In this document: positions 3,467 to 49,123 of the stretch, in pieces
How the letters are laid out: the number at the start of each line of letters is the position of its first letter
How positions within the stretch are numbered: position 1 is the first letter of the stretch
Assembly (NCBI RefSeq): GCF_003111685.1
Contig: NZ_CP022190.1
Coordinates: 1,264,001-1,328,000 of the forward strand
DNA length: 64,000 bases
From: Alloyangia pacifica
Lineage (GTDB): Bacteria > Pseudomonadota > Alphaproteobacteria > Rhodobacterales > Rhodobacteraceae
Direction of reading: 5' to 3'
Position numbers and translations under genes: made by a program
The notes under the pieces: model-generated
The model's database searches: none
What the model saw: only the letters and a program-made list of their open reading frames with translations
What the model was told of the DNA's origin: nothing

Positions 3467-3531
3467 TTGACACCCTTTGCGCACGCTTATGCTTCGTTTT
3501 GCGCACTCATATGCTTGCTCTGACTCTGACA
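3467..3531 (-). repeat. Right-type transposon end with tandem 22-bp-period transposase sites
   Basis: Two tandem 19-mers, tttgcgcacgcttatgctt (3476-3494) and tttgcgcactcatatgctt (3498-3516), are spaced 22 bases apart after a ttgacaccc block. The same arrangement, with the same leading block, recurs at 43120-43169. Tandem closely spaced sites are what TnsB-type transposases bind in the right end of Tn7-like elements (family knowledge). The outer edge reads, on the minus strand, AGTCAGAGCAAGC. Its element would lie to the left. Exact tip not proven. Confidence 0.6.
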
Positions 3532-3671
3532 GTCAGAGAAAGCAGATGAATGCGCAAAATCAATCACTTCCGATTCGGCGCCAGGAATCCATAAACATTT
3601 TCAACAACTTGTCGGACGCGATTCCCAGAGTGAAAGCATATGCCTGCGCAGAAACCAAAAACCTGCGCAGC
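3532..3671 (+). repeat. Left-type end of the module 1 Tn7-like element
   Basis: Starting with agtcagagaaagc, this end holds sites in the orientation opposite to 3467-3531: aagcagatgaatgcgcaaa at 3540-3558, aagcatatgcctgcgcaga at 3634-3652 and a weaker one at 3653-3671. Widely spaced sites next to the tns genes resemble a Tn7-type left end. The first 27 bases match the complement of the right-type end at 43150-43178 almost perfectly, which supports one element spanning 3532 to 43178. Five bases (ctgac) separate it from the abutting right-type end. Confidence 0.6.
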
Positions 3672-3721
3672 TTCAGAGGGTTAGCTCATGCGGGCATCCG
3701 GACGCCAACTTCCAGGCATGA

Positions 3722-3748
3722 AAAAACCCGCGCCGAAGCGCGGGTTTC
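3722..3748 (-). terminator. Terminator of the tnsABC module 1 operon
   Basis: Stem aaacccgcgc / gcgcgggttt with a short ttcg-type loop; on the minus strand it ends in a run of six T residues, directly after the end of the frameshifted tnsC frame. Confidence 0.85.
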
Positions 3749-3773
3749 TCGAAGACCGAATTGTCCTGGAAGA

Positions 3774-4762
3774 TCAGGTGCCGATGGCGGCCCGGAACGG
3801 CTTGTCCCTCCGGAACATCCGCTCGTAGCTGTCATGGGTGAACGGTGTCGCCAGCTGGTTCATTCCGGTTTTCTCACACCAAGCCGCCACGAAATCCGAC
3901 CGTTCAACCATCCCTTCCCTCCTGGCAACGGCAAGTGCCACGGCATCGACGACCATGTCGATGACCAGCCCCACCTGAATGCGCCGGCGGTCGCAAGGCG
4001 GTGCAGGAAATCTCCCGTCGGTAGACTCGCATCGACATCGAGCCCCGCGCTGATCGCGTAGCTGCCGACGATCTCGTTGAGGGTTTCGTAGTCCTGTGCC
4101 GGATGCCCGGGTGCGCTGCTCAGATCGATTTCCTGAAACTCGATCCTGGTCATCAGCCGATCGAGCTGCGGCTCGCGTTGCACATAGCCTCCCAGTTCCG
4201 GAACACCCGAAAGGATCAACATGAGGGGCCAGTCATGTGACTTCATGAGCGTCTTGAAAGCATCCAGGACGCTCAGAACCTCGGCATCTGACTTTCCGCG
4301 CATGATATGCTGGGCTTCGTCGTAGTAGATCCCGACGACGCCCTGGAGCTTGGCCTGCTTGACGACCAGATCCCAGATCTCAAACTGGGTTTTGCGCGTC
4401 TTGTTCGTAATGGGATAGCCCAAGGCGTGCAGCGTCTTGCGACCAAGGTCCTTCCAACTCCCTTTCGCCTCCAGCACGCAGCTAGCAAACCGCGCATCCT
4501 TGCCGTCAGGCATGCGAACAGCGCTCTCGTTGAAGCGGTTCAGCATGTCCGAGATCTCGGCTGTCTTGCCAGAACCAGATCGCCCCGTCACAAGGAGGCT
4601 GCGTGCCTCGAAGCCCTTCCCGGACTGCAGACGCCCCAGGTGGCGACTGAAGAGCTGCGCGAAGGTCTGCTGAAGTTCCTCGCCCCTGGCGAGCGGGAAA
4701 TGACGCTGCGCCAGGTCCGCATTCAAGTTTGCCAACGAGGGAATGATGAAGGGGTTGGTCAC
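3774..4762 (-). pseudogene. tnsC: TnsC/TniB-type AAA+ ATPase of module 1, frameshifted
   Basis: The first ~255 residues read like a TniB/TnsC regulator: Walker A GRSGSGKT (residues 60-67), Walker B YYDEAQH (about 147-153) and a later LSGVPELG sensor block. The frame starting at 4762 then runs into a non-homologous tail and stops at 3860. The expected C-terminal part (GLVIDMVVDAVALAVARREG...) continues in another frame to a stop at 3774. The span of 989 bases is one short of a whole number of codons, so a single-base loss near 3980-4000, in a G/C-rich stretch, would explain it. The intact product would be 329 residues, like module 2 (319). It overlaps tnsB by 4 bases. A sequencing error or programmed frameshift is possible. 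Confidence 0.8.
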
Positions 4763-7002
4763 AGTTTGCTATCCTTGATGGGGAGGAAGGTCATGGTCTT
4801 GATGTCGTCAGGGCCTGGCGCCGAAGTGGCCCCCTTCTCTGGGGGTACATCCGTCGGTCCAGCGGACTGTGGCGGAGGTGCGCTTGCCCTGAGAGGCGTC
4901 GATGCGGACGGGGGCCTGAACGGTGCCGCACCGGCGGGGCGTGCCGGCACCACACCCGACGTGCGGCCCCTGCTCATGAGGTGCCCGGGTGCGGCAGTCG
5001 CACCGACATAGGCGGCGGGGCGCGCTTCGACCTGAAGCAGTTTGCTCGCGCGAGCCTCGAGCTGTGCGAGCGTCTGGTAGCTCGACGGATCGCGGGAATC
5101 GGGGAAGAAGCCGGATTCAAACGCGCGACGCTTCATCGCTTCGCCCAGGTGTCGATCATGGAGTTCCCGCAAGCTCGGATTGGACTTCGTCGCAGCCTCC
5201 ATGATTTCGATGGCTTCTTCGAGCGTCTGGTCCTTGAAGACGGTCATGCTAAGGCGGGCTTCAATCACGGCGTCTTCACCCTCGGCAGTGACATGGACCT
5301 TCCGCAGGTCGTCGGGATCGAGGTGAACGGTGACCCGCTTTGGGCTCCCCGCTGCAAAGCGTTGGAGTTCCGTAGAGTTGAACGGGATATTGAACGCCCT
5401 TACCCCTTCTGACGTCGTGGTTGCCTGGACCTTCGCGCCCAAATGCAGACACCGGTCGCGCTGCGACGGCGGTTCCATCGGGCCGTAAAGCTTCAGGGCC
5501 TCTTCCTGCTTCTGACGAGGGGTCGCACCGTACATCCCGGTGCCGCGATGCGGCCGGAAGGGATACTCATCGATGAAGTATCGTGTGAGGGTGCCATAGA
5601 GGTCGTCATGGCTGATTTCGGCCGAGGGCTTGGGCTCGTAGCCGGTCAGTTCGCCAGGGCGGCTACCAGTGTACCCTGGCCGGAAGTTCAGCACGTCCCA
5701 TTGCGTCGTGCCGAAAAGCCGCTCGACCATCTGCTTGTCCATTGGCTGGTGCGCGCGCGCCGTCATCACGGTCATGCCCATTCCGAGCTGACCCGCATAA
5801 ACGTCTGCATTCCGGGTGGCCGTGCCATTGTCCGCCAGCGCAAGTCCCAGGCGGACGGGCGGCACGGGATCCTGTTTGCAGCCGTATCGCACCTTCTCCT
5901 TCGTTTTGTCCCGCGTCGCCATGCGAAGCAGAGCCTTGCTGTGATCAGCATCGGCCGTTTCAGACATGACCCAGCCCAGCACCTCGCGGGTCGCGATATC
6001 AAGGATCACATGGAGCCAGCAGCGTCGGATCTCATTGTCCGCAAGCTCCTGCGGAGCTTCCTTGGGATCGATAACCTCAGCACGTACGACACCATCGCCG
6101 GAGGTGAAAATTGACAATAAGTATTGATCCGTTTCGAACTTCTCACCGAATCCCAGGGCGCGCACATCGGTAGAACCAGCTCCCTTGGTGTTGGTCCCAT
6201 GCCGCGCTCCTCCGCGACCGATCACGGTCACGACACCAGAAATCGCCTTCGCACGCGTGCGGATCGTCGTGATCGAGGGAAAGTTGATGACTTGCGCCAT
6301 CTCTCGGGGAGAGCGGTGAAAGACTTTTGTCGCCAGCTTGTAAACAGATGCCAATTTTGGCTGCTTAGGATCATGCCAACGGTTCAGGACGTAGTCGATG
6401 AACCGCTCTTGCCATTCGCAGAGCCTTGGCTCCCGACGCCCCTTCATGCGGTCACGATCCGCCAAGACGATTGGGTTCTGATCGAAGCGATGATAGACGT
6501 CGCGGTAGCTGGCTAGGGTCCGACCTTGCGGGACATCGAAGCCGCTTGCGAGCTTCCCGCCGCGGCGTGTCCCGAGAAAATTGTGCCCAGGCGCAAGCTT
6601 TTCCGCGCGGGTCAGTAGCAAACGGCGATGTGTACCGTCCTTGTTCATGCTGCGCTGGGTGAGCTTCACGCCCTCGGCGCGCAGCTCGTTCTGAGCGATA
6701 ACAAGGGCGAGGCGCGCCTGGACAATCCGCTGGTCTTTTTCCGAAAGCTGCTCAACGCACTCGAGGCCGTCGGTATGCTTGAGCAGGGCCTTCCGCTTTT
6801 CAACATCGGCCGGTTTGATGACCTCGCAATCCCGGTGTCGGATTGCAGTCTCCACCCGCTCAAGCGGCAGCGTGAAACACTCGCCGGTTTCCTTGCATTC
6901 CACCGCATAACCGCTCTCCTCGCGAACCGACACCGTCAGTTCGCGACCATCCAGCTTCAGGATGGATCCTTTGGGGATGTTGTAGAGCGGTTGCGAGGTC
7001 AT
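4759..7002 (-). CDS. tnsB: TnsB/TniA-type DDE transposase, module 1
   Basis: 747 residues. The rve-type catalytic core shows all three acidic residues: D292 (FETDQY), D391 (ALADNGTATR) and E427 (KQMVERLF). An N-terminal helical region with HTH-like segments precedes it, and a C-terminal ~85-residue Pro/Ala-rich tail ends in a short hydrophobic tip (MTFLPIKD), reminiscent of the TnsC-contacting hook described for TnsB. The protein cuts and joins the 3' ends of the element. Its ATG overlaps the tnsA stop by 4 bases and its stop overlaps the tnsC start, indicating one operon. It shares the family but little visible identity with the module 2 TnsB, so the two modules should recognise different ends. 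Confidence 0.92.
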   Translation of the reverse strand: MTSQPLYNIPKGSILKLDGRELTVSVREESGYAVECKETGECFTLPLERVETAIRHRDCEVIKPADVEKRKALLKHTDGLECVEQLSEKDQRIVQARLALVIAQNELRAEGVKLTQRSMNKDGTHRRLLLTRAEKLAPGHNFLGTRRGGKLASGFDVPQGRTLASYRDVYHRFDQNPIVLADRDRMKGRREPRLCEWQERFIDYVLNRWHDPKQPKLASVYKLATKVFHRSPREMAQVINFPSITTIRTRAKAISGVVTVIGRGGARHGTNTKGAGSTDVRALGFGEKFETDQYLLSIFTSGDGVVRAEVIDPKEAPQELADNEIRRCWLHVILDIATREVLGWVMSETADADHSKALLRMATRDKTKEKVRYGCKQDPVPPVRLGLALADNGTATRNADVYAGQLGMGMTVMTARAHQPMDKQMVERLFGTTQWDVLNFRPGYTGSRPGELTGYEPKPSAEISHDDLYGTLTRYFIDEYPFRPHRGTGMYGATPRQKQEEALKLYGPMEPPSQRDRCLHLGAKVQATTTSEGVRAFNIPFNSTELQRFAAGSPKRVTVHLDPDDLRKVHVTAEGEDAVIEARLSMTVFKDQTLEEAIEIMEAATKSNPSLRELHDRHLGEAMKRRAFESGFFPDSRDPSSYQTLAQLEARASKLLQVEARPAAYVGATAAPGHLMSRGRTSGVVPARPAGAAPFRPPSASTPLRASAPPPQSAGPTDVPPEKGATSAPGPDDIKTMTFLPIKDSKL

Positions 7003-7739
7003 GCGTTCAGCGCGACCCGGGAGGGGTAATCAATGACCCCATGCATGTCCGTCCAGAGCACATTCTGACCGATGAGCCGCATCGCCGCCTGGTAGCAGCG
7101 CCACGGCTCCATGTCGCAATTCGCGATCAGGTCGCTCAGGTACCAATAGCTGGTATTGCGTGCGGCTTCCTCGACGAGCGCATCCGCGTCATCGTCCGAC
7201 ACCTGCAGATAGTCCCAGATACGGCGAAGGTTGTCGCGATAGGCGCGCGTGTAGTCATCGGTGCAGACGACCATGCAGTCGTCAGCAAAGTCCTCGGTGA
7301 CCGCGGCGAAGATGTCGTCGATTTCGTCCTGGGTTTCGCGCCTCGCCAAGCTCGTCGCGTTGCGGACGAAGACCGCGCGCCGGTAACCGTCCCGGAAGGT
7401 CAGCCGCAAGTCGAAGTGATGGGGGTACACTCCCTTCTGGCGACGGCAATAGTAGTAAACAGGGGCAAGCTGCACTTCCAGTCCATAGAGTTCGGGGCTG
7501 CGAAGGGCATCCAGGGTGACGGCATATTCGGAATCGCCATCGAAATGGTAAACCTGCCGGATGCCGCCCGTCATCGGCGTTGCCAGAGCTGTCGACACCC
7601 GCTTGGCCGTGTCGCTGCGGTTCAGGGGATTAAGAGCACCTGCATAGGGGAGCACCCCGTGGATCGGTGCCACCACTAGGGCGGGCTGTTCCTTTTTGGG
7701 TGCCGGTTGGTCCTGCAACCAGTCTTCGTAATTCGACAT
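6999..7739 (-). CDS. tnsA: TnsA-like endonuclease subunit, module 1 (Lys replaced by Arg)
   Basis: 246 residues, first gene of the tnsABC operon. A TnsA-type PD-(D/E)XK core is suggested by the order E71 (DSEYAVTLDAL), D110 (HHFDLRLTF) and, 16 residues later, AVFVRN. In Tn7 TnsA the last motif carries the catalytic Lys132; here it is Arg126. TnsA normally cuts the 5' strands so that the element moves by cut-and-paste. With this change, cleavage may be lost or altered (inference). The call rests on position before tnsB, size and motif order; sequence similarity is weak by eye. The start is supported by GGAGA upstream. A hairpin lies immediately 5' of that site. Confidence 0.7.
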   Translation of the reverse strand: MSNYEDWLQDQPAPKKEQPALVVAPIHGVLPYAGALNPLNRSDTAKRVSTALATPMTGGIRQVYHFDGDSEYAVTLDALRSPELYGLEVQLAPVYYYCRRQKGVYPHHFDLRLTFRDGYRRAVFVRNATSLARRETQDEIDDIFAAVTEDFADDCMVVCTDDYTRAYRDNLRRIWDYLQVSDDDADALVEEAARNTSYWYLSDLIANCDMEPWRCYQAAMRLIGQNVLWTDMHGVIDYPSRVALNA

Positions 7740-7751
7740 GCCGTCTCCGTT

Positions 7752-7774
7752 CCCGGAAACGAGGCGTTTCCGGG
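7752..7774 (-). promoter_or_regulatory. Leader hairpin directly upstream of tnsA
   Basis: Perfect 9-bp stem (cccggaaac / gtttccggg, loop of 5) placed 12 bases from the tnsA start codon, next to its ribosome binding site. It could tune translation of the operon; it lacks a T run, so it is not a simple terminator. Confidence 0.45.
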
Positions 7775-7879
7775 GTAGTCATCTTTTCATCCTGGAGCTC
7801 AGACCGCGCTTGCCCGGACCGTTTTCGGCCTCTAGCTTGGCAAGTGATACACGGGCGATCTTTGCCCCAACTTCCAGGC

Positions 7880-7907
7880 GCGCACCCGAGGGTGCGCGTT
7901 TTCTTTT
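7880..7907 (+). terminator. Intrinsic terminator on the plus strand
   Basis: Stem gcgcaccc / gggtgcgc with a two-base loop, followed by gttttctttt. It would end plus-strand transcripts, yet no plus-strand gene precedes it within the tns module; it may shield tnsABC from cargo or be a relic. Confidence 0.6.
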
Positions 7908-7916
7908 GCGCAGGAC

Positions 7917-8366
7917 CTGGCCCTCGTGGACCGCCGACCTTGCACAAGGGGAAGGTCCGCGAATCCGCTGAAAATCCAAAACAGAAAAATGCGCCAGGCC
8001 TTGAAGGCTCTTGCTGAATTAGAGTCAACCTACTGAAAATGCGAAAAAATATCGTGTGTATTTTCTTGAAGTGGCCATGTCGAAGACCGCAGGCACAACG
8101 TTCTAGGAGCCGGCAGGACGATGGCGGACATGTTTTCGCAAGGCCATGCACAGAACATCGCGAGAAGAAAGTTGCAGCTCTCCCGCCGAGTGGTCATCTT
8201 TGACGGAAACAAAGTGGCAATTAGATCGCGCCCTGGTTGCGCGCCGCGCCGCTGTCGACGTTCCCGCAAAATCCGCGCAACTCGGGCGCCGGCGAAGGGC
8301 GAGCCGATGGGTGCAGATAGTCCGTCGGTTTGAAGATCGGCAAGTTTGTATCCTTGGCGGGAACAA
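7917..8366. repeat. Long direct repeat R, left of the opine cassette
   Basis: About 450 bases of non-coding sequence that reappear, same orientation, at 21706-22151 with roughly 75-80% identity by eye. Identity starts sharply at ctggccctcgtggaccgccg and fades after gggaacaa. It fills the gap between tnsA and the catabolic cassette. It contains an A/T-rich palindrome-like block (tgaaaatgcgaaaaaatat ... tattttc) and several small hairpins. Frames in it are not convincing as genes. Confidence 0.8.
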
Positions 8367-8484
8367 ACTCTAAAAGCGTTAAACCTCGGTCTCAATGCTT
8401 TGAAATGGAAGCCGCCCGGCCTCAGCTTTTCACTTCGCTATGGCAGGTATCCTGATGAGACAGCTTTGCTCCGCGCACATGCAG

Positions 8485-8550
8485 TATAACCCGCAGGAAT
8501 GCACCAGCAATAAATTTGCCTTTGAACTACTGATCGAGCACTCCGATAAA
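8485..8550 (+). promoter_or_regulatory. LysR box and promoter of the PrpD-family gene
   Basis: TATAACC...GGAATG at 8485-8501 matches the LysR boxes at 18863-18879 and 21510-21526. Exactly 20 bases later comes TTGAAC (8522-8527), then 17 bases and GATAAA (8545-8550), 38 bases before the start codon. The same geometry in all three places argues for activation by the LysR protein encoded at 18883. Confidence 0.75.
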
Positions 8551-8588
8551 CCTCTCGACATCAAGCAATCACTTAGAGGAACGACCCA

Positions 8589-9959
8589 TTGGACCAGGCC
8601 GCGACAGTGTCTTCCCGAGACTACCAAGCCCCATATGAGATTGTCGGAGAACTTGCGCGCTACGTAGTTCAAGCGCGTGACGCCGCAGTGCCCTCCGCGG
8701 CCAAGGATCCCGCGCTACAGTGTATATTTGATCTCATCGTGGCTTCCATCGTTGGATTTAGCGACCCGGGACCGACCTCACTTCGCCAAGCCGCCGTAGA
8801 GCTTTACGCACCCGGCCACGCTACGATCTGGTTCGCCGACCAGACCCGCAGCGCTATAGGTGCGGCCTGGGCCAACAGCAGCGCTGCGGCAGCCAAGGAT
8901 CTCGATGACGGCAACCGTTTTGCCGCCGGTCATCCGGGCGCCGCGATCATTCCCGCGGCCCTGGCTACCGCGCAGGAGGTCGGCGCAACGCTAGACCAGA
9001 CCCTCGCCGCTATTGTCCTCGGCTACGAGGTCGCGGTGACCGTCGGCTCGGCGCGCACGACCTACGGCAGCTCGGGAACTTGGACGCCGTTCGGTGTGGT
9101 GGCCACAGTCGCCGCGCTGCGCGGCACCCCACTTGGGGCCATTGAGCACGCGCTGGCGATCGTCGGCGAAAGCGCCCCTAACCAAAGCTTCGCAGGCGGA
9201 CCTTCGCCGCGCATCCCGCATCCCGAAGGGGCCTCCATCAAGGAAGGCATCCCCTGGGGCGTTGTCACAGGCATGACCGCAGTCGTCATGGCCGAAGCCG
9301 GCCACACCGGACCGCGCAACATTCTGGACAGCCGCCGCCACTACGTCTTCCCCGAGGACCTGCGCCTGGGCGCTGCACTGCACATTTGCCAGACTTACTT
9401 CAAGCCCTACGCATGCTGCCGCCACATCCACGCGCCGCTTGCCGCCTTGCATCAGGTGATGGCAGATCACGGGGTCAGCGGAGCGGAAATCGACGCGATC
9501 CACGTCGAAACCCATCCTCCTGCCTTGCGCATTTCGAATAAGGCCGATCCGGTGAACCTGGTCGACGTGCAGTACAGCATACCCTTCGACCTGGCGCTGT
9601 CCGCGTTGCACGGGCCAGAGATGCTTACACCGGTGACCGAGGCTTCCCTTTCGCTTCCGGGCGTCAGGGAGCTGGCCCGGAAGGTCACGCTGGAGGCGAG
9701 CGACGCATTCGCCGAGTCCTACCCCAACGAGATCCTTGGCCGCGTGACCCTGACCTGTGGGGACCGCGTTCTGACCTCGGCACCAACCCCGCCCGAGGGT
9801 GAGCCGCTGATGAGCTGGCAAGAACTGGACACCAAGTTCCGACGTGCCACCCGCCTGGCGCTTCAGATGGATCGGCAGCAGGCGATCTTGGGCGCAATAG
9901 CATCCCTCAAGGCCGGAGAGATGCGCCCGCTTCTGTCCCAGCTTTCCACACCGCTTTGA
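8589..9959 (+). CDS. MmgE/PrpD family protein
   Basis: 456 residues, full length for the MmgE/PrpD fold (2-methylcitrate dehydratase, cis-aconitate decarboxylase and isomerases of this class). Conserved-looking blocks are AAAKDLDDGNRFAAGHPGAAIIPAA, typical near the active site, and the TYFKPYACCRHIHAP stretch. A TTG start at 8589 follows AGAGGA with good spacing; no ATG fits better. The gene faces the opine transport operon and has its own LysR-type promoter. Its reaction here is unknown; it may act on a dicarboxylate or keto acid released from the opine. Family firm, substrate open. Confidence 0.88.
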   Translation: MDQAATVSSRDYQAPYEIVGELARYVVQARDAAVPSAAKDPALQCIFDLIVASIVGFSDPGPTSLRQAAVELYAPGHATIWFADQTRSAIGAAWANSSAAAAKDLDDGNRFAAGHPGAAIIPAALATAQEVGATLDQTLAAIVLGYEVAVTVGSARTTYGSSGTWTPFGVVATVAALRGTPLGAIEHALAIVGESAPNQSFAGGPSPRIPHPEGASIKEGIPWGVVTGMTAVVMAEAGHTGPRNILDSRRHYVFPEDLRLGAALHICQTYFKPYACCRHIHAPLAALHQVMADHGVSGAEIDAIHVETHPPALRISNKADPVNLVDVQYSIPFDLALSALHGPEMLTPVTEASLSLPGVRELARKVTLEASDAFAESYPNEILGRVTLTCGDRVLTSAPTPPEGEPLMSWQELDTKFRRATRLALQMDRQQAILGAIASLKAGEMRPLLSQLSTPL

Positions 9960-9965
9960 CCGGAA

Positions 9966-10004
9966 AACGCCGGCCCCTGTCTGGGACCGGCGTTCACCCT
10001 TTTT
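9966..10004. terminator. Bidirectional terminator between convergent genes
   Basis: Stem aacgccgg / ccggcgtt (9966-9973 and 9987-9994) with further pairing inside, then ttttt on the plus strand. It separates the PrpD-family gene from the opine dehydrogenase gene coming from the other side. Confidence 0.75.
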
Positions 10005-10023
10005 CGTGCGAGGCGCCTGCGCC

Positions 10024-11043
10024 CTACGCCAGACCAAGCAGCGCCCGAAGCCCCGATGCGCCCTCTCGCGGCAGCAGGTCGTTCAGGGCTCTGTAATTCC
10101 GGCCGTGGCAGGCGCCAAGGATCTTGATGCCACTTTCGTGCAGCGGCGCGGGAACGCCTGCCATCTCTGCAAGCATGACCAGCGGCACCAGGCCGAAAGG
10201 CACGTCTTCGGTGATGTAGCGGGTCTCGGGATCGACCGGCCCCAGAGGATCGGTTCCGGCCGCGACACGTGCGCGGAATACCGCGTCCAGCCCGCCCTCT
10301 GCCTGCGGCCTCACCCTGCGGCCAAAACCGCGAGCAATCGCCAGCCGCTCTGCATCCAGCCCTTCAAGGAAGCGGGCGACGGAAGGCGTCATCAGCGAGT
10401 TCTGATGCCACTGCTCCCCGGTCTCTATCCGGGTCAGGTTGCACAGAGCCATGGCCAGGTGAGTCTGCGGGTTGAGGTTGCTGAGGGCGTTGTCCAGAAG
10501 GTCGCCGCCATGTTGGAACCGCGGACCAAAGAGCGCCTCGCAAAGCGCCAGGGCGCCGGCGATGTCGCCCCCCGGCAAAGTGCAGATCTCTACCCGCTTG
10601 CGCAGCGCCCCCACTCGGATCGCCGGAGGTTCGGGGCTCTTGCAGGTCATGGCGGTGGTGTTCCAGCAGATCACCGGCAGGGACAGGCCCCGCGCGTGCA
10701 ACGCTTGCCCGAGGTGCAGCGCCGCAAAGGACAGGTGGGCGCTTACGATGATGCTCTGCCCGTCGCGCAGATGCGGCAACAGCGCGTCCAGCACGGCGCG
10801 GTGGCCAGTGGCCGGCAAGGCCAGGATGAGGACTTCTGCCTGGGCCAGCTCTGCGATATCCGCGGCCAGCTTGGGTGCGAAACGCTCCTCGACAGCGCCT
10901 GAAACGACAAGTTCAGTTACCACCCGCAATTCTGCACCGGAAACGCCGCGCGGCGACCACATCCGGGGGCAGTGACCCGCGTTGGAGAGATAGGCGAAGT
11001 AGGCGCGAGCGATATTGCCCGCGCCGACGATACCGACGTTCAT
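10024..11043 (-). CDS. NAD/NADP octopine/nopaline dehydrogenase family protein
   Basis: 339 residues from the ATG at 11043, which follows GAAGGAAG. The N-terminal Rossmann motif GIVGAGNIARA sits at residues 4-14; the C-terminal half has the helical octopine-dehydrogenase domain with NLNPQTHLAMALCNLTRIETG and a later ESGIKILGA stretch. Family members reversibly join or split an amino acid and a 2-keto acid. It lies 62 bases after the last ABC ATPase gene on the same strand and is probably the last gene of that operon. Together with a transporter and flavoenzyme genes it suggests use of an opine-like compound. The exact substrate cannot be read from sequence. Confidence 0.85.
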   Translation of the reverse strand: MNVGIVGAGNIARAYFAYLSNAGHCPRMWSPRGVSGAELRVVTELVVSGAVEERFAPKLAADIAELAQAEVLILALPATGHRAVLDALLPHLRDGQSIIVSAHLSFAALHLGQALHARGLSLPVICWNTTAMTCKSPEPPAIRVGALRKRVEICTLPGGDIAGALALCEALFGPRFQHGGDLLDNALSNLNPQTHLAMALCNLTRIETGEQWHQNSLMTPSVARFLEGLDAERLAIARGFGRRVRPQAEGGLDAVFRARVAAGTDPLGPVDPETRYITEDVPFGLVPLVMLAEMAGVPAPLHESGIKILGACHGRNYRALNDLLPREGASGLRALLGLA

Positions 11044-11105
11044 GGAGCTTCCTTCGGGTGCGTGCGCCGCTCCCAAGGGAACGACGCGCTGGCGTTTGCT
11101 TATGT

Positions 11106-12065
11106 TCAGAAGAGGTGACAGGCGACCTGCCGTCCCGGCGCGATCTCCTTCGTGGCGGGCATGCTTTCTCGGCACGCCGCGATAGCGCGCGGGCAGCGGG
11201 TGTGGAACGGACAGCCCGAGGGCGGGTTGGCCGGTGACGGGATCTCGCCCGCGATGCGCGGCGGCTTCACCCGGTTCGCCGGGTCCGGGATGGGGGAGCT
11301 TTGCCGCAACAGCACCGTGTAGGGGTGCGCGGGATCATCCATGATCTCCTGCGTCGGCCCGCTTTCCACCACATGGCCCAGGTACATCACGCAGGTCGTG
11401 TCGCAGAAGTGCCGGATCACGCCAAGGTCATGTGACACGAAGAGGAAGGACAGCGTCCGCTTTTCGCGCAGGTCGTCCAGCAGCCGCAGGATCTGCGCCT
11501 GAACCGATACGTCCAGCGCCGAGACCGGTTCATCCGCAACCACCAGGTCCGGTTCCAGCACAAGCGCACGCGCGATGCCGATCCGCTGGCGCTGCCCGCC
11601 CGAAAATTCGTGCGGGAAGCGGTCCATCGCATCGCGCGGCAGCCCGACTTCGGACAGGATCGCCTCGGCCCGGGCTCGGCGATCGGCCGAATCCCCGATG
11701 CCATGCACTTTAAGCGGCTCTTCCAGCGTCTTGCGGATACTCCGGCGGCTGTTCAACGAGGCATAGGGGTCCTGGAAGATGAACTGCATGCGTTGGCGCA
11801 GGCGGCGCATTTCGGCCGGCGAGGCAGAAGCCACATCGATGCCGTCGAAGGTGACGCGGCCGGCGGTCGGTTCCTCCAGCCGCAGGATGGCGCGGGAAGC
11901 GGTGGACTTGCCGCAGCCGGATTCCCCTACCAGCCCGACGCTGGAACCGGGAGCGACCGAAAGGCTGACGTTTTCTACTGCGCGCACCGTACGGGCCTTG
12001 CCGCCCAGGAACCCGCCCCCGATGGTGAAGTGCTTTTTCAGACCCTCGACTTGCAGACCGCTCAT
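11106..12065 (-). CDS. Oligopeptide/opine ABC transporter ATP-binding protein (DppF/OppF type)
   Basis: 319 residues. Walker A GESGCGKST, signature FSGGQRQR, Walker B LVVADEP and the C-terminal oligopeptide-type CPFHTRCP motif are present. It energises import with the second ATPase (12062-13054) and the two permeases upstream. The ATG at 12065 overlaps the upstream stop by 4 bases (ATGA). Long frames upstream of that ATG are in the previous gene and are not used. Confidence 0.93.
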   Translation of the reverse strand: MSGLQVEGLKKHFTIGGGFLGGKARTVRAVENVSLSVAPGSSVGLVGESGCGKSTASRAILRLEEPTAGRVTFDGIDVASASPAEMRRLRQRMQFIFQDPYASLNSRRSIRKTLEEPLKVHGIGDSADRRARAEAILSEVGLPRDAMDRFPHEFSGGQRQRIGIARALVLEPDLVVADEPVSALDVSVQAQILRLLDDLREKRTLSFLFVSHDLGVIRHFCDTTCVMYLGHVVESGPTQEIMDDPAHPYTVLLRQSSPIPDPANRVKPPRIAGEIPSPANPPSGCPFHTRCPRAIAACRESMPATKEIAPGRQVACHLF

Positions 12066-18786: not shown

Positions 18787-18813
18787 GCTGGATTACCTCG
18801 CTTGTTGTTGATT

Positions 18814-18879: not shown

Positions 18880-18882
18880 CCC

Positions 18883-19800: not shown

Positions 19801-19810
19801 GCAAACGTCA

Positions 19811-42444: not shown

Positions 42445-42642
42445 CGCTTAGCTGCGCTGCTAGCTGCGCTGCGGCTAAAGACCGCTTCCCGCCCTTCGAG
42501 CCAGGTCAGTTCGCCTTCCTGCGCCGGACGTGAGCGGTGTCTACGGGCCGGTTGAAGCCATCACTTTGTTCCCAGAGCCGCGACGCTCAGTGTCTTCCTG
42601 GGTAGCGTTGTGTCAACTGGCCCAGGAAGCCCTCGCGAGGCG

Positions 42643-42903
42643 TCACTCAGGTCTAATCTCGCGCTGGTGGCGGCCAAGGAGGGCGACCAGTCTTCGGCCA
42701 GAAATTACCTTCTGACGCTTGAGGTGGATAAGGCCTCGTTCGACCGGGTCAAGGTCAACTTCTTCTCCACAGACGCGCGCAATGCCGTCGGCATAGACAT
42801 CGGTTGCCGTGATGGGCACCTGACAATTTCTCCGACGCTGATATCGGTTCAGGATCGTAGCGACAGTTTGCGTCTGCATCATAGTCTTCGTCAGAGCTTC
42901 CAC
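42643..42903 (-). CDS. Possible small protein, 86 aa
   Basis: Not recognised with certainty. The sequence QTQTVATILNRYQRRRN, DVYADGIARV, EEVDLDPVERGLIHLK and VISGRRLVALLGRHQREI looks like a real compact helical protein rather than a shadow, and no better frame competes. A GTG at 42903 or an ATG at 42879 could be the start. The rest of 42445-43119 holds no gene I can support. Confidence 0.4.
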   Translation of the reverse strand: MEALTKTMMQTQTVATILNRYQRRRNCQVPITATDVYADGIARVCGEEVDLDPVERGLIHLKRQKVISGRRLVALLGRHQREIRPE

Positions 42904-43119
42904 CGTTTCAAAGCAACCTTGTGTTCAGGGTCTCACCATCGCGAGCGCCGCTGCGCCGTGCTCAGGAGCGCATAGCGACGGCACGACGGCCCTCCGCGAC
43001 TTCATATCACGAACCGCACATCCCCTTCATACGCGAAAGGCGCCGGAGCGTCTGCTCCAGCGCCTCTATCACCGTCCGTCAGAGAGCAGCCGAAGGGCAC
43101 GAGGCGGTACGTTTCGCCC

Positions 43120-43182
43120 TTGACACCCCTTGCGCAGACTTATGCTTCCGTTTGCGCATTCGTCTGCTTTCTCTGACTTGTA
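43120..43182 (-). repeat. Right-type end of the module 1 element
   Basis: A ttgacacccc block leads two tandem sites, cttgcgcagacttatgctt (43129-43147) and tttgcgcattcgtctgctt (43151-43169), period 22, as at 3476-3516. The outer edge ctctgact (43171-43178) is the complement of the first bases of the left-type end at 3532, and the match continues through the first site. The next five bases (tgtag) do not equal the ctgac left of 3532, so a simple target duplication is not visible. A TGT at 43179 may start the module 2 element. Confidence 0.6.
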
Positions 43183-43327
43183 GGACCCACCTAAAAAACG
43201 CCATTGGGGTCACTCGACATACCCGTAACTCATTGAAATAAATCACTGCAAGAAATCCCCTTCGCACCGGCGGCGGCCAGTTTGTCCTTTTGGCACAGGA
43301 TTAATGTCCATCGATTTTCCAAGAAAA

Positions 43328-43373: not shown

Positions 43374-45191
43374 TCAAACCTTGGGCAGGTCTGCCTTCTC
43401 ATAGATAGCAGCACCGAACTCCCTTGGGTCCCAGATCGGCTTGACCCCGCGTTCACGAAGCAACTTCTCGATGGCGAGCGGTCTTGCACCCATGACCAGA
43501 GGCAGCCTCTTCTTGGTCACGTATTTCTGCCGGAAGTTCTCGAGCGCCGCGGGCGAAACCCAGACGTCCTCGCCATAAGGCTCGGATGCGATCAGCGGTG
43601 CCGCTTCGGGATGGCAGAACACGCGACGGCCTCGGGAGGGATCGAACCCGAGAATGATGAGCGCCAACTCCCCGCTCATCCCGGGACGGGGAAGCGCAAG
43701 CTTCGACTTGATCTCCTGAGGATCCACGAGAACGGCCGCCAGGCCAGCGGCACCGGCCAAACGGCATGCACGCAGCAAGCGCCCCTGCAGCAACATCGAT
43801 AGAATGACGGACATCTTCACCCTCCCCTTCTCTGCAGCCTTGGCGAGCGTCACCATGGTCGTCGGCTTCTCCGCGACTTCGGGAAGGCGCACCTGCATCC
43901 GCTCCAGGAAAGCCGCCATTTCCAGCCCATCGACTGCCTTGCTCATTTTGCTGGAAGCCGCCTCGACCCCCGTAAGCCGCGTGAGCGCCCCGATCTCAAG
44001 AAGGGCTGCGACCATAGGGCGTGATGCTCCCAGAAACTCCGGCAAGCGGCTGACCGGCACAGCATGCTTCAGCATCCGAATGGACGGGCGCGCGGCGTCG
44101 TAGCGCAGAAAGATATGACCGCACGGGGCCTCCCGGTCAGAGGCGGAAATGGCCCCTTGGTCGGCGAGCAGGTTCCGGAGCGTCATCGGATGTACGAGTT
44201 CTCCGGCCGCGATCTTGGCCACACTGCTGACACGGGGGACCTCAACAGGGCTGCCCAAGAGGATTTGCCCTTTTGTCAGGGGCACCGTGTCGAGGATGTG
44301 CTCCCGCAGAAGAGGGCGGATGGCCCCGGGATCCTTTGTCAGCCGCGATGCGGACATCCAAGCATAGAGCATGCCATAAGCAGTCTTGGGATGCATGGAG
44401 CCGGTGTTGGTCTCGGAACGCTTCAACAGATCCATAAAGGTGGTACGGATCGCCGCCTCCCCCTCGCTCATCACCGGCCACCCCGCGCGGCCGGCTTCAT
44501 CCCACATGCTCTCGGTCATGTTGGAGGCCTTCTGCCCAGCTCCGAACGCGATGACCGCACCCAGCATTTCGGTGGCACGGACGCCCTGCTCGATCCCCTG
44601 GCCATCAAGCCATGCGGGGCCGGAAGCGCCCGCCAGCCTCGCGACGACATAGTCCTGCAGCGGCGAAGGCCGCAGCGAGGCGTTAGGTCCGACCGCCAGC
44701 GCTTCTTTCTCCCAAGGCAACGCCTGAAGTTCATGCGCTCCGTCGTCCCATTTCCCGCCGCGGCGGCTGAGCAACGGGATCTGATGCACGGGACATACCC
44801 TGACCACGGACAGGGACCAGATCAAACGATGCCGCCACCTGGTGGCGGGGCGCGCAGCACCCGCGGCATCCTCGGCCAAGCAGGAGGGGCAGAAGCGGGT
44901 GACGGGCCCAGTCAGGAACTCCGCAGCGAAGCGCTCACCGCGGAGGGCATATTGCCGATCGCCGAGCGCTGTCACAGCGTTATGCGCGACTGATGCGCGC
45001 TCCTGCCCCGAGATCGAACACAGCCGCGCAAGCGCACACTCTTCGCCACGCTTCAAGGACCAGAGGTCGATGCCAAGGTCGTTCAAAAACGGCACAAGGC
45101 GCCCACCCGTGTGAAAGGCCGCGCTACGCGCGGCCCAGGAGAGCGGAGTTTCATCCGGATGAAACGGCAGGTGGGGGAAAAGCATCGCCAT
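43374..45191 (-). CDS. tniQ: TniQ-family target-selection protein, module 2
   Basis: 605 residues. The N-terminal TniQ domain begins FPHLPFHPDETPLSWAARSAA; zinc ligands C101-x2-C104 and C133-x2-H136 match the spacing of the first TniQ. The long C-terminal part has HTH-like segments (LPEFLGASRPMVAALLEIG; VTLAKAAEKGRVKMSVILSMLLQG) that may read a DNA target. It is the last gene of the operon, 3 bases after tnsC. Length is like TnsD-type selectors, larger than TniQ of CRISPR-associated elements. Confidence 0.9.
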   Translation of the reverse strand: MAMLFPHLPFHPDETPLSWAARSAAFHTGGRLVPFLNDLGIDLWSLKRGEECALARLCSISGQERASVAHNAVTALGDRQYALRGERFAAEFLTGPVTRFCPSCLAEDAAGAARPATRWRHRLIWSLSVVRVCPVHQIPLLSRRGGKWDDGAHELQALPWEKEALAVGPNASLRPSPLQDYVVARLAGASGPAWLDGQGIEQGVRATEMLGAVIAFGAGQKASNMTESMWDEAGRAGWPVMSEGEAAIRTTFMDLLKRSETNTGSMHPKTAYGMLYAWMSASRLTKDPGAIRPLLREHILDTVPLTKGQILLGSPVEVPRVSSVAKIAAGELVHPMTLRNLLADQGAISASDREAPCGHIFLRYDAARPSIRMLKHAVPVSRLPEFLGASRPMVAALLEIGALTRLTGVEAASSKMSKAVDGLEMAAFLERMQVRLPEVAEKPTTMVTLAKAAEKGRVKMSVILSMLLQGRLLRACRLAGAAGLAAVLVDPQEIKSKLALPRPGMSGELALIILGFDPSRGRRVFCHPEAAPLIASEPYGEDVWVSPAALENFRQKYVTKKRLPLVMGARPLAIEKLLRERGVKPIWDPREFGAAIYEKADLPKV

Positions 45192-45194
45192 GAC

Positions 45195-46154
45195 TCAGCC
45201 CCTCCGCCGCGTCGAGACACGCGGTGCCACCTCGGAGGCCTGATCGAGGCGCAGAAGCCGATACTGCTCGGCATAGAACACGTTCTGGTCGGCAGGACAC
45301 CCTTCATGCATGGCCCAGGCACGGGCGAAGTGATCGATCGTCAGATCGCAGGCCTCCGCGTAGAGGGCCACCTCGATCGCGCGCACGATCAGTTCGATCG
45401 CCCTGCCGAACCGGTAGCGCGCCCCATGGAAGACCCGCCCGACAAGGTCGGCCTCGACCGGCGCACCAAGGCCAGCCCGATGGCAGTAGTCACCGACGAT
45501 TTGCTGGAAGAGGTCACCGTGCAATTCGGGAACCAACGCCGCAAAAGCGACCGTCGAGAAGCGCCGCTGAACCTGGGGGTCCGTCCGGATAACCTGCGCA
45601 AGCTCCTCGGTGCCGGAGAGGACAACGATCACGGCATCATCCCCCTGCATCAGGGACTTCAACGCGCGCAGAATGAGGTTTCTGTCCGCGCAAAACAGGT
45701 CGTGGGCCTCGTCGATCCACAGGACAACAGTACCCGTCACGCGCATGCGCTCGCGAAGGATCTGGACAAGCGACCAGACCTGCCGGGTCGGCGACACAGT
45801 TCCGTAGCCACTCTTCTCGAGCATCTCCAGCACCATGCTCTTGAGGGTTGCCGGGCTCGGTACGGAGCATTCCAGGAACCTCGGGCGGCCGTACTCCCCC
45901 TCTGCCAGGACAGGAAACTTCATGAGGGCGCGATGAACGAGGTGGGACTTGCCGCTGCCGGCGCCGCCCACGACCATGATACCGCGCGTTTCATTGGTCC
46001 GGGTAAAGCGGATCGGCTCGGGGGAGAGTTCCCCCTCGTCGTCCCGTTTCAGGAGGCGCGCGAGTTGGCCCGTCAGCTCGGTATCCATATCGGAGCCAAC
46101 GTGGAGGCTCCGAAGATGTTCGAGCGCACGTGCGGTTTGAGCGAGATGCGACAT
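45195..46154 (-). CDS. tnsC: TnsC/TniB-type AAA+ ATPase, module 2
   Basis: 319 residues, intact. Walker A GGAGSGKS (63-70), Walker B VVLWIDEAHDL (about 143-153), sensor VVLSGTEELAQ and an arginine-rich end. It would pass the target signal from TniQ to TnsA/TnsB. The start follows GAAGAGGA, 2 bases after the tnsB stop. It gives the reference length (319) that shows module 1 tnsC is broken. Confidence 0.92.
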   Translation of the reverse strand: MSHLAQTARALEHLRSLHVGSDMDTELTGQLARLLKRDDEGELSPEPIRFTRTNETRGIMVVGGAGSGKSHLVHRALMKFPVLAEGEYGRPRFLECSVPSPATLKSMVLEMLEKSGYGTVSPTRQVWSLVQILRERMRVTGTVVLWIDEAHDLFCADRNLILRALKSLMQGDDAVIVVLSGTEELAQVIRTDPQVQRRFSTVAFAALVPELHGDLFQQIVGDYCHRAGLGAPVEADLVGRVFHGARYRFGRAIELIVRAIEVALYAEACDLTIDHFARAWAMHEGCPADQNVFYAEQYRLLRLDQASEVAPRVSTRRRG

Positions 46155-46156
46155 GA

Positions 46157-48310
46157 TCAGTCCTCTTCGATGTTCAGGGTCGTCTGGGTCTTGGGCGCGC
46201 TGCCGGCACGTTTCGCCGCGTTGCGCTGCACCGGAGGCGCGGCATCGGCGGGCTCGACGTGATCGCGAATGGCACGGCCCAGCTCGCTGTCGTTCTGCGG
46301 GCTGGAGGCGCGCTCGTGGAATTCCACACCCGCGAGCACTTTCCTTTCCGCACGTTCGATGGCGTCGCCAGACCAGTCCTCGAGGTTCAGGCTCGCCGCA
46401 ACCATGGCTGCCTCGTTGCGCTCTTCGATCGCCTTGATGGCCTGACGGACCGCCGGCAGATCCAGCCGGTTCGACTTCGGGTTGCCGGCACGAACCGTGC
46501 GGGTTGCCGTCAGCCAGGTTTGTGCGGAGACCCCTTCGAGGCTGGCGTCAACAGACGGCACCTCATGCCACCGATCTCCCAGCTGAACCGAAACGGCTCC
46601 GATATCCTTGGGATGCCAGCGGACATTGACGGTGCAGCTGTCCTCACGACGGAGCCACGTCGCCAGTTTCTCGGAGTGATAGCGGACCTTGAGGATGGTG
46701 ATCCCGGTCTTATCCAGCGTAGCGGTCTTATGCTGGCCGAACACGGTGCGCGCAGTGTGCATGTCCGGCGGCGGCATCACACCCCATTGCGTGCTCAGAC
46801 GACGCCAGCAGGCGATGGGCGTCTCTCCGTCCAGCCCACGGTGAGGCGTGTTGTGGTAGATGTCGACGACCCAGCGAACCAGCGCAAAGGTCAGATCATC
46901 TACGGTCAGCGCAGCGCGTTTGGTGGGGTCAGAGTCGCCTTTCTCCAGAATGTTGGAGAAGGTACGGCCAGACAGGCGCGGCATCAGATCCAGGACGAAG
47001 GTCTTGAACACACGTTCGATGGTCCCGCGAACTTCCGGAACGCCGTTGATGGCGATTTCCGTAGCGATCGCCAGATCAGCACATGCGAACCGAAAGCGTT
47101 CGGACTTGAACGCGAGGCCTCCGTCGGTGACGATCAATTCGGGCCGACCATGCATGTCCCAGGCGGTGAGCGCGCCGACGGCGTCTGCCCACTTGCCCTT
47201 GTTCGTCATGATCATCTGCACCGCCTGGGTAGCGGCCTCGCCCCCGGGCTCCCGGCTCAGGACCATGGAGAGGATGCAGCGCGTGGTGCAGCAGATCGCT
47301 GCGGTGATCCACCAGCGCGCCTTCTTTTTGTCGAGCCCCATGGCAGTCCTCTCCTCGTCCGTCAGGAGATCGAACATGCCGGAGTCCTTCATGAGGGTGA
47401 TCAGGTCGACTTGCCATTCGTCGATTTCCACCCGCTGAAGCGGCCGGGTGAGATCCAGGCCGTTGAGCACCGGGCGGTACTTCTTCCGCGCCGCGGCCTC
47501 GCCTTCCCGGGCCAAGGTCACTTGGAAGGGATCGAGTTCGCGCACAGCGCGGCGGACCGTCTCACGGCTTGGCGTGGTCAACACACCCAGCCCAACTTTC
47601 ACCCGTTCGGCATTACGCTTGGCGAAGGCGATTTGGACGCCTTCATGGATCATCTTGATCGTCGGCTTCTCGGGCGAAAGATACTTCCGCACCTCGGTCA
47701 TGAGCAGGCCGATTTCTTCAGGGCCCATCACCCGGGTACGATTGCCGCGACGATGCATGACATCGGCCAGCCCGATCAGCCCAAGCTCTTCCTTCGCGAC
47801 CAGCCAACGGCGCAACGTACGGGGAGAAGGCGCTTCGCCGAAGTTCCGCGAGATGTCGAGCCTGTGGTCGCCAGCGCGGGTATCCTTCCCCGCATACTCC
47901 AAGGCCTTGCCCTTGATCAGCACCATGTTGGCGCCAAGGCTTTCATCCGTCATCTTGATCAGGCCATCGCGGCGCAGTTCCAGCAGCGCCTCGCAATAGG
48001 CGTCCTTCTTCGAAAGGCGCGCATGGCTCTTGAACGGCAGATCGTTCACGAAACCCGCGGACTGAACCAAGCGCTTGCGAGCAGAGGCGACATCGTAATA
48101 GCCCATCTCGACCCGGATACGACCCTGCGCGCCCAAGCGGCTCAGCTGTCCATGCGTATACCCTTGGGCGAGACCGACACTGTCATCGGCACCGAAGACA
48201 TACCCGTCTTCGGATTGGTGAATGACCTTGCAGGCCATCCCGTTGATATGCACCCGGTCGAACTTTCCGAAGGCATAGCGTGCGTTGTCGATATCGAAGT
48301 TGAGTTCCAT
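46157..48310 (-). CDS. tnsB: TnsB/TniA-type DDE transposase, module 2
   Basis: 717 residues. Catalytic acids D297 (VEIDEWQVDL), D396 (LIVTDGGLAF) and E432 (GTIERVF) are in place. The N-terminal ~280 residues contain HTH-like helices (PSPRTLRRWLVAKEELG). The C-terminus is shorter and less Pro-rich than in module 1. The start follows GAGGAAA. It is 132 bases downstream of tnsA, so unlike module 1 the two genes do not overlap. Confidence 0.92.
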   Translation of the reverse strand: MELNFDIDNARYAFGKFDRVHINGMACKVIHQSEDGYVFGADDSVGLAQGYTHGQLSRLGAQGRIRVEMGYYDVASARKRLVQSAGFVNDLPFKSHARLSKKDAYCEALLELRRDGLIKMTDESLGANMVLIKGKALEYAGKDTRAGDHRLDISRNFGEAPSPRTLRRWLVAKEELGLIGLADVMHRRGNRTRVMGPEEIGLLMTEVRKYLSPEKPTIKMIHEGVQIAFAKRNAERVKVGLGVLTTPSRETVRRAVRELDPFQVTLAREGEAAARKKYRPVLNGLDLTRPLQRVEIDEWQVDLITLMKDSGMFDLLTDEERTAMGLDKKKARWWITAAICCTTRCILSMVLSREPGGEAATQAVQMIMTNKGKWADAVGALTAWDMHGRPELIVTDGGLAFKSERFRFACADLAIATEIAINGVPEVRGTIERVFKTFVLDLMPRLSGRTFSNILEKGDSDPTKRAALTVDDLTFALVRWVVDIYHNTPHRGLDGETPIACWRRLSTQWGVMPPPDMHTARTVFGQHKTATLDKTGITILKVRYHSEKLATWLRREDSCTVNVRWHPKDIGAVSVQLGDRWHEVPSVDASLEGVSAQTWLTATRTVRAGNPKSNRLDLPAVRQAIKAIEERNEAAMVAASLNLEDWSGDAIERAERKVLAGVEFHERASSPQNDSELGRAIRDHVEPADAAPPVQRNAAKRAGSAPKTQTTLNIEED

Positions 48311-48442
48311 TTTCTTTCCTCTGGAAGTGTCCGGTCGTTCCGGAATTTGAGCGCGCGGAGAGAACCCACTGCCGATGTGCAGTCGGGCCGCCGCAGCGGT
48401 TGATGGGGGATGATTGGTAGAGGGACTGAGACAGAGCTGCGG

Positions 48443-49123
48443 TTAGTGCAGCGCCATCACCCTGATGACCTGGGAGGTTTCGCTGATCTTCTCCCGGCGC
48501 AGGAGCTGGAGGTGCCCCGATCCGATGTGACGGACCACGGCGCGCAAGCCGGTACCCTCCATCCCGATCCGGTCGCGCAGGACCCCGATCGTCTCGACGC
48601 CGCGCATCATACCGATCACCTCGGCAGCTGCCTGATCTGCGTCAGGCTCCGCGATGCGTACCGAGTGAAGGTGCGTGGCGTTGTGAAGAGCGACAGGGCA
48701 GACATCCCGTTCGGTGAAGAGGCGAAAGTCATCGAACACGCCCTGGGAGAGCGACTGGTGCTTGACCCTGGCCAGCTCGTCCTCGTACCCGGCGCTGACA
48801 CGATGGATCGGACGCACCGCGTAGCCGATACGACGGCCGTCACGGAGCCGGCAGACCAGGTCGACATAGTGGGTGTAGTACTCGCCATCGGCGTCATACC
48901 AGTCAAAGGCCTGCTGCTCGACGAGATCGACCGTGGTCGGCGCATAGCGGAGGATGAGCGCCACCTTCTTCTCAAGGTTGCTTTCCAGGCCGACGCCGCG
49001 CCCGTGGCCTTCGCCAAAAGTGATATGTCCCGTGAAATGGGACTTCGATGCGACTTGAGTGCTGCGGTTACCAGCGCTCACCTCGGGCAAGCGAATACCG
49101 CCCGGCAGAAAGGGATAAGACAT
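48443..49123 (-). CDS. tnsA: TnsA-like endonuclease subunit, module 2 (Lys replaced by Arg)
   Basis: 226 residues from the ATG at 49123 (GGGAGA upstream); a longer Cys-rich extension upstream is not convincing. The order LESNLEKKVALILRY (E47/E51), THYVDLVCRL (D88) and GYAVRP (R104, 16 residues later) resembles the TnsA PD-(D/E)XK core, where the last residue is normally Lys. The same Asp-to-Arg spacing occurs in the module 1 protein. Expected partner of TnsB in cutting the 5' strands; activity uncertain because of the Arg. Confidence 0.72.
   Translation of the reverse strand: MSYPFLPGGIRLPEVSAGNRSTQVASKSHFTGHITFGEGHGRGVGLESNLEKKVALILRYAPTTVDLVEQQAFDWYDADGEYYTHYVDLVCRLRDGRRIGYAVRPIHRVSAGYEDELARVKHQSLSQGVFDDFRLFTERDVCPVALHNATHLHSVRIAEPDADQAAAEVIGMMRGVETIGVLRDRIGMEGTGLRAVVRHIGSGHLQLLRREKISETSQVIRVMALH

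Follow-up and report, generated by a model that had tools for sequence, protein, structure and literature searches.

We analysed a 64,000-nt window of the Alloyangia pacifica genome (G000:C2:1264001-1328000), whose nearest relatives belong to Salipiger/Alloyangia, and in which two Tn7-like transposition modules lie on one island. The island is larger than the window, past which its parts extend. Each module consists of a tnsA-tnsB-tnsC set with a tniQ gene, as had been proposed from the sequence alone (hereafter the original prediction); Pfam and NCBIfam matches, together with a structure model of TnsA-1, confirmed this composition. We read the island, with high confidence, as a stack of Tn7-like cut-and-paste transposons homing to the 3′ end of nrdJ, a ribonucleotide reductase gene, all in one orientation and with the right (R) end turned towards the gene. 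Comparisons covered 149 genomes of the family, and 20 Salipiger genomes in the case of nrdJ; G088 denotes Salipiger bermudensis.

The tnsABC genes of module 1, carried by element 1, are on the minus strand. tnsC-1 (3860-4762, minus) encodes an AAA+ ATPase, with AAA_22 and TniB matches over the cut-off, and tnsB-1 (4759-7002, minus) a transposase of 747 amino acids (aa), with Mu-transpos_C over and rve below the cut-off; D292, D391 and E427, read from alignments, are taken as its catalytic triad. The genes are those originally predicted, but the limit then placed at 3774 did not hold, as tnsC-1 ends at 3860. tnsA-1 (6999-7739, minus) encodes a putative endonuclease. No Pfam or NCBIfam match was found for TnsA-1, and its AlphaFold model, made with 36 sequences, had a mean predicted local distance difference test (pLDDT) score of 86. 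Foldseek returned Tn7 TnsA (1t0f and 1f1z) as the best PDB matches of this model, with E values of 6e-8 to 2e-7 and a probability of 1.00, but with low template modelling (TM) scores of 0.38-0.43; judged by the model, TnsA-1 is closest to Tn7 TnsA in the PDB. Relative to eight aligned relatives, tnsC-1 is out of frame after residue 265, i.e. for its last 35 residues. This frameshift may have stranded element 1, which may no longer move by itself because of it. The tnsC gene of locus L118 has an early stop of its own, slightly further on than the tnsC-1 frameshift.

The predicted target selector of element 1, TniQ-1 (611 aa, TnsD-sized), is encoded at 30239-32074 on the plus strand, opposite to tnsABC-1 and 22 kb away from it, and the same opposition of strands and gap between tniQ and tnsABC recur in G067, G162 and G160. 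Both TniQ proteins matched the TniQ domain PF06527 strongly (E 1e-21 for TniQ-1 and 4e-19 for TniQ-2). A protein 96.8% identical to TniQ-1 is encoded on a G160 element that lies 16 bp behind nrdJ. A metallophosphoesterase gene (28831-29979, plus) adjoins tniQ-1; proteins 88.7-89.5% identical to its product are found beside tniQ-1 in G088, G162 and G160, and beside a tniQ-1 fragment in G094. The gene could have a role in transposition or simply travel as linked cargo. Shortly behind tniQ-1, an RNA 2′-phosphotransferase (Tpt1/KptA, E 1e-20) is encoded at 32552-32962.

Module 2, carried by element 2, is entirely on the minus strand. It comprises tniQ-2 (43374-45191), with its TniQ domain match, tnsC-2 (45195-46154), with TniB and AAA_22 over the cut-off, and tnsB-2 (46157-48310), whose product is a transposase of 717 aa with Pfam and PDB matches and with D297, D396 and E432, again read from alignments, taken as catalytic triad. 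The putative tnsA-2 (48443-49261) was assigned from its operon position and an NCBIfam TnsA-like match (E 6e-6) under the model cut-off. Upstream of it, on the same strand, a 208-aa gene (49746-50372) is a possible regulator. It had a strong match in 3 of the 149 family genomes (G000 itself, G088 and G094), all of which have a TnsB-2 relative, and matched in 3 further family genomes only at E 1e-4; it is also present in G155. That element 2 ends near this gene was ruled out, as its R end was found behind nrdJ.

The two modules belong to distant families. Identity between TnsB-1 and TnsB-2 is 22% over 475 aa, and that between TniQ-1 and TniQ-2 is 28%. The phylogenies that the original prediction proposed as a check were built for TnsB (32 proteins, midpoint-rooted) and TniQ (29 proteins), and each of them splits families 1 and 2 at 100/98. 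The TnsB-1 and TnsB-2 clades each spread over other genera. The impression that TnsB proteins of 747 and 717 aa are only distantly alike was thus correct. TniQ-1 is sister to a group of seven TniQs, of which the two members with a determined site both sit at tRNA-Arg(CCT).

Element 1 runs from 3531 to 43178, its ends being set to the base. The motif TGCGCA-N4-TATGCTT is found at 3477 and 3499 (plus), at 3540, 3634 and 3653 (minus) and at 43130 and 43152 (plus); scanning the window with up to 3 mismatches yielded 12 matches, against 4.2 expected. It is present in 12 of the 13 named TnsB-1 loci (all but L127) and, with more mismatches, in G067 and G050. The left (L) end, on the tnsC side (3531-3670, minus), has the terminus AGTCAGAG and sites at 3540-3557, 3634-3651 and 3653-3670, the last with 3 mismatches; a pair of L-end sites 94-96 bp apart also occurs in L118-L123, L125, L126 and L128. 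The R end, proximal to the attachment (att) site (43112-43178, plus), has sites at 43130-43147 and 43152-43169 and the terminus ...CTCTGACT at 43178. End types were set from relatives: two close sites, on the side to which tniQ points, define R, and spaced sites behind tnsC define L. Element 1 has, then, unlike ends with several putative TnsB sites each. Its clade has AG termini in every copy shown (AGTCAGAG in most, AGTCAGGG and AGCCAAAG in single loci), unlike G067, G050 and G094, which have TG. The TGT...ACA termini that are typical, though not obligatory, are absent from element 1, whereas element 2 has TGT.

A further R end of the same family lies just outside element 1, at 3460-3525 (plus). 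It has sites at 3477-3494 and 3499-3516, both with 0 mismatches, and the terminus ...CTCTGACT at 3525, and is 85% identical to 43112-43178; we assign it to a relic element 0. A 279-aa gene of unassigned family next to it (2342-3181, minus), for which no Pfam or NCBIfam match was found, is read as remnant content of this relic, since a protein 73% identical to it over residues 32-279 is encoded inside the G067 element, between tniQ and the R end. The G067 and G050 elements have exact ends, with the R end just behind tRNA-Arg(CCT), a gene called by ARAGORN in G050 and, in G067, recognised in the sequence itself, being truncated by the edge of the locus. ARAGORN also reported a gene resembling transfer-messenger RNA inside the G067 element (L065, 5410-5588). 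As a target in G000, tRNA-Arg(CCT) was rejected: the gene is at C1:565391, and no element-1 site (up to 2 mismatches) was found in the surrounding 20 kb.

The original prediction had one element ending, and the next beginning, near 43179, and this border was found there: the end of element 1 stops at 43178 and the terminus of element 2 starts at 43179. The L end of element 2 (43179-43310) has the terminus TGTAGGACCCACC, its start also being given as the repeat TGTAGGACCC; related termini are TGTAGAACC in G088 and TGTGGGACT in G094. End sites of element 2, which are putative TnsB sites, were judged by eye and with regular expressions. The part of element 2 inside the window (43179-64000) continues to C2:1350393 and over C2:1-28243, which amounts to 43,215 + 28,243 = 71,458 bp if the replicon is circular. 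A frame for a solute-binding protein of 542 aa stays open across the contig join of C2; the join falls at residue 485, and the frame aligns with a paralogue at 56% on both sides of it (residues 57-535). From these two facts we conclude that C2 is circular and that nrdJ faces element 2. The picture of two elements held for the two modules but was incomplete, given the third end at 3460-3525, the fusion-like structure of element 1 described below, and an element 2 that is mostly outside the window.

The attachment site was identified in G162, where a second element-2 terminus, 18.4 kb away, adjoins the C-terminus of a ribonucleotide reductase gene. The Pseudooceanicola spongiae copy of this gene encodes the ribonucleotide reductase barrel, all-alpha and TSCPD domains of Pfam; from these domains and a C-terminal motif we take it to be nrdJ (B12-dependent, class II). 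In G000, nrdJ is at C2:28268-28804 (minus), and its stop (28265-28267) is followed by 16 bp, AGTCA and the element-2 terminus at 28243, so that the R end of element 2 is 21 bp behind the stop. The gene was present in all 20 Salipiger genomes searched. Behind its stop, 3 of the 20 have an element-1 R end (G152 and G160 at +16, G154 at +21) and 12 a TGT terminus with TGRCCAT-like sites, while 5 match neither criterion; in the 11 Salipiger genomes other than G000, the TGT termini with similar sites are about 17-24 bp behind the stop. P. spongiae has an element-1 R end at +16. In the wider family, the nrdJ query matched in 132 of 149 genomes. The search returned 30 loci including G000 and G088, and the 28 best-matching loci of other genera, scored by almost identical criteria with a little more latitude for element-1 ends, gave 4 with TGT, 23 with none and 1 not scored. 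The nrdJ loci L207, L226 and L209 resemble other termini by eye.

Matching 5-bp target duplications were found in 7 of the 11 element instances tested. In G000, element 1 has CTGAC at 3526-3530 (GTCAG on the other strand), and the second copy of GTCAG lies across element 2, 16 bp behind nrdJ (C2:28249-28253). The duplication of element 2 in the same genome is AGTCA, the copy at its L end being the first five bases of element 1. Other element-2-type duplications are GAGTC in G162, TAGAG in G155 (two ends on two contigs) and GTCAG in G165, and those of the tRNA-Arg relatives are CTTAT in G067 and CGACA in G050. Thus, in four genomes, an element-2-type element with matching duplications stands between nrdJ and an element-1 end. 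As these four duplications include terminal bases of the resident element-1-family R end, element 2 arrived second each time, and as they differ from each other, the insertions were probably separate events. Together with the element-1 ends found directly behind nrdJ, this means that both families use nrdJ and stack, the newest element being nearest the gene. The claim that distinct Tn7-like elements lie in tandem at a shared site is therefore upheld by the ends, the 5-bp duplications and the common nrdJ site; a module not bounded by ends, which would have contradicted it, was looked for and not found.

Positions, ends, duplications and order of insertion can all be read from the sequences themselves. 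Each insertion leaves nrdJ intact and the site usable, so that a later element lands between nrdJ and the earlier one. The order outward from nrdJ is element 2, element 1 (in two parts, 1a and 1b) and relic element 0. In G000, element 1 stood 16 bp behind the nrdJ stop before element 2 arrived; as element 2 lands 5 bp further out, it spares the end of element 1 and duplicates its first five bases. In the mechanism that we propose, TniQ would bind nrdJ where its coding sequence ends, in the way that TnsD binds glmS, and TnsA and TnsB together would make the movement cut-and-paste. Target immunity would be specific to each TnsB family, for which reason one family would not keep the other out.

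The two parts of element 1 became apparent upstream of tnsA-1. A conserved region, core B (7740-8370), precedes cargo 1a (8371-21705), and its homology stops at 8368-8370 in 8 of the 13 loci that were searched and of which 11 matched, two of the 8 (L125 and L155) being a single contig. A 260-bp stretch of core B (7917-8175) recurs with 83% identity at 21706-21964, within a second tnsA-upstream region that has no tnsA, core B′ (21706-22151), which we read as the remnant of an element 1b. Positions 21707-22400 are 92% identical to G149, where tnsA follows, and a UvrD-like helicase gene (22379-25303, plus) is cargo of element 1b; in G149, UvrD (94% at the protein level), B′ and tnsABC form one continuous piece. 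Core B groups with Alloyangia mangrovi and B′ with G149 (supports 0.999 and 1.0). Element 1 is thus probably a fusion of two tandem elements, 1a (3531-21705) and 1b (21706-43178): the different lineages of B and B′ and the arrangement in G149 point to two source elements whose intervening parts were lost. That element 1 is instead a single unbroken element with an internal duplication of B and B′ seems unlikely. Both of its outer ends carry the duplication GTCAG, and G162 and G160 each have a single element that combines tnsABC-1 with tniQ-1 (along with the metallophosphoesterase gene and, in G160, with tnsB in two frames); the shared GTCAG does not discriminate, however, because stacked elements would share the duplication too. 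Moreover, where B and B′ align they are 73% alike, each groups with a relative of its own, and B′ runs on into UvrD exactly as in G149.

Could one element home to the end of the other transposon, and not to nrdJ? Abutting ends had raised this suspicion: in G000, G162, G088, G155 and G165, the R end of element 1 and the L end of element 2 adjoin at a spacing, determined by eye, of −1 to 4 bp, and terminal bases of element 1 make up part of the element-2 duplications. It was rejected once both element-2 ends and the flanks of nrdJ had been located. In G152, G160, G154 and P. spongiae, nrdJ is followed directly by an element-1 R end, no element 2 intervening, and the four element-2 insertions with matching duplications have their R end 20-23 bp from nrdJ. 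Homing to nrdJ accounts for all these positions, which leaves homing to a transposon end very improbable. That the two modules are alleles joined by homologous recombination of one island is hardly credible, for although module 2 was exchanged by recombination at some time, as its G088 flanks (84-95% alike) are far more similar than the DNA between, which aligns in pieces only (65-74%), TnsB-1 and TnsB-2 are 22% alike, form separate clades that each spread over other genera and go with different ends and sites, each with its own duplications.

Several observations weigh against the stacking of both families at nrdJ, or against parts of it. First, 4 of the 11 element instances have no matching duplication: element 2 of G088, whose ends lie on separate contigs and may belong to different elements, element 1 of G162 (GGATG v ATGAG), element 1 of G160 and the P. 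spongiae relic (L121). The element-1 end of G154 is at +21 instead of +16, and the TGT criterion alone cannot separate element-2 relatives from other Tn7-like families. Binding of TniQ to nrdJ is suggested by position only. A search of the 60 kb to the left of the window did not reveal the outer (left) end of the island; in these 60 kb, the nrdJ-downstream stretches of G153, G156 and G150 had no match, and that of G152 had only end and insertion sequence (IS)-like matches. Neither is nrdJ the sole site, since element-1-type R ends also occur near uvrB and the gene of an electron transport chain (ETC) complex I subunit in G000, G151 and Chachezhania. The G000 copy of this second-place end is solitary (C2:694544-694595) and cut by an IS5-like gene. 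The subunit gene is present in 20 of 20 Salipiger genomes, and its flanking segment, a possible second target, was found outside G000 in G151 and Chachezhania L129 alone. In L148 and L129, as in G000, R ends lie at a conserved segment downstream of the subunit gene, next to uvrB. Finally, in another genus (L209 of G013) the sequence behind nrdJ contains, by eye, a site resembling the inner one at the R end of the G050 element, which is of the tRNA type, so that use of nrdJ may predate the split. The TniQ tree favours independent acquisition of nrdJ by the two families, without proving it. The wider proposal, in which two lineages took up nrdJ independently with offsets a few bases apart, family-specific immunity allows harmless stacking into Salipiger islands of far more than 100 kb, and element 1 moves with AG/CT termini, is a tentative one, and we lean slightly against it as a whole.

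Besides the transposition genes, cargo 1a encodes MmgE/PrpD, an octopine-type dehydrogenase, an oligopeptide ABC transporter, FAD oxidoreductases and a LysR regulator. An OLD/AriA-like AAA ATPase gene (40690-42444, plus) is possible defence cargo, and a 121-aa open reading frame (ORF; 42610-42975, plus) next to the R end also lies beside element-1 R ends in several other genomes. A full-length DUF3604 protein is encoded by cargo at 33704-35545 (E 6e-211). In element 2, direct repeats that are 90% identical (50505-50735 and 58412-58642) flank a 7.7-kb block with IclR, TRAP transporter, CoA transferase, HpcH aldolase and MaoC genes; S. bermudensis is without the block at that place, the preceding gene and the following HipA gene being adjacent. 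A dispersed repeat of about 100-190 bp occurs at 783-905, 33387-33521 and 36630-36811 and also in L004, most pairs being 82-98% alike; it has several copies in the window and up to 8 kb past its right edge. Two inverted IS110 copies (905-2298 and 39158-40551; 99.8% identical over 1.4 kb) could in principle invert most of element 1; such an inversion was considered as the origin of the order of ends and became unneeded once R- and L-type ends were distinguished.

Among the attachment sites of Tn7-like elements, those named in PMC11406308 are tRNA genes, glmS, comM, parE, guaC, yciA, ffs, rsmJ and yhiN. No word beginning with 'nrd' occurs in the texts of PMC10293859 and PMC8649781, and our search, outside which most subscription literature lies, found no paper on Tn7-like elements at nrdJ or another ribonucleotide reductase gene. 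Within the same scope, no related paper on Tn7 in Salipiger and none on immunity was found; for Tn7 and TniQ in Rhodobacteraceae only a review of tools came up, and for ribonucleotide reductase and transposons on Roseobacter islands only a paper on cobamides. As far as this search reaches, the nrdJ site, its use by two families, and AG/CT in place of TG/CA termini are new. A conserved ribonucleotide reductase gene thereby joins the short list of attachment sites, and two distantly related TniQ selectors for one gene are a natural test of how TniQ reads DNA; these selectors are also a possible source of tools for safe-site insertion in marine alphaproteobacteria. With base-exact junctions in several genomes, the order of insertion is readable and immunity between families directly testable. 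Docking at nrdJ lets catabolic and defence-like genes accumulate there in a marine bacterium.

The island resembles Tn7 (TnsABC+TnsD, at glmS) in its tnsA-B-C operon, its selector of the TniQ/TnsD family, and an R end placed just behind the stop of a conserved gene that stays intact. Tn7, too, makes a 5-bp duplication. It differs from the present case in that here the target is nrdJ, tniQ-1 is far from tnsABC on the other strand, and element 1 ends in AG/CT; no TnsE match was found among the 56 window ORFs scanned with Pfam. According to PMC11406308, insertion preserves the sequence that was recognised, Tn7 is a strong inhibitor of further insertion close by, overlapping sites appear to mark the end nearest the att site, and TGT is the typical end, though exceptions are known. 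As far as its sequence tells, element 1 fits the rule of close sites, and its AG termini are one more exception to TGT. A second comparison is with the Tn7-like elements that home to tRNA genes (Tn7744 of type I-B2, and the type I-D CRISPR-associated transposons (CASTs) Tn7575 and Tn7745). Here, the TnsB-1 relatives of G067 and G050 sit at tRNA-Arg(CCT) and agree with element 1 in site motif, layout of the ends and position of tniQ, while element 1 itself uses nrdJ; of its 7 nearest TniQ relatives in the tree, the 2 with a determined site are at tRNA-Arg. The closest solved relatives of the transposases are TnsB of the type I-F3 CAST Tn6677 (PDB 9y7b) and PseTnsAB (30jv), with E 3e-33 for TnsB-2 and 1e-10 for TnsB-1. 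Unlike in I-F3 CASTs, tnsA is here a separate gene, TniQ is TnsD-sized and no CRISPR-Cas was seen: the 56 window ORFs had no Cas match in Pfam (46 scanned at E 0.001, 10 at 0.1) and the window no Rfam match, no CRISPR finder being run and element 2 beyond the window not being scanned. Both TniQs match the PADLOC model of CAST-associated TniQ, as any TniQ might. Insertion inside or adjacent to an existing Tn7-like element gives rise to multiple left and right ends, as stated in PMC8649781. Here, as in the known tandem islands, Tn7-like elements accumulate at one site. Such islands are said to have been described by Peters in 2014 and by Parks and Peters in 2009; what sets the present one apart from them is that two distant families are involved, with base-exact junctions and duplications in several genomes.

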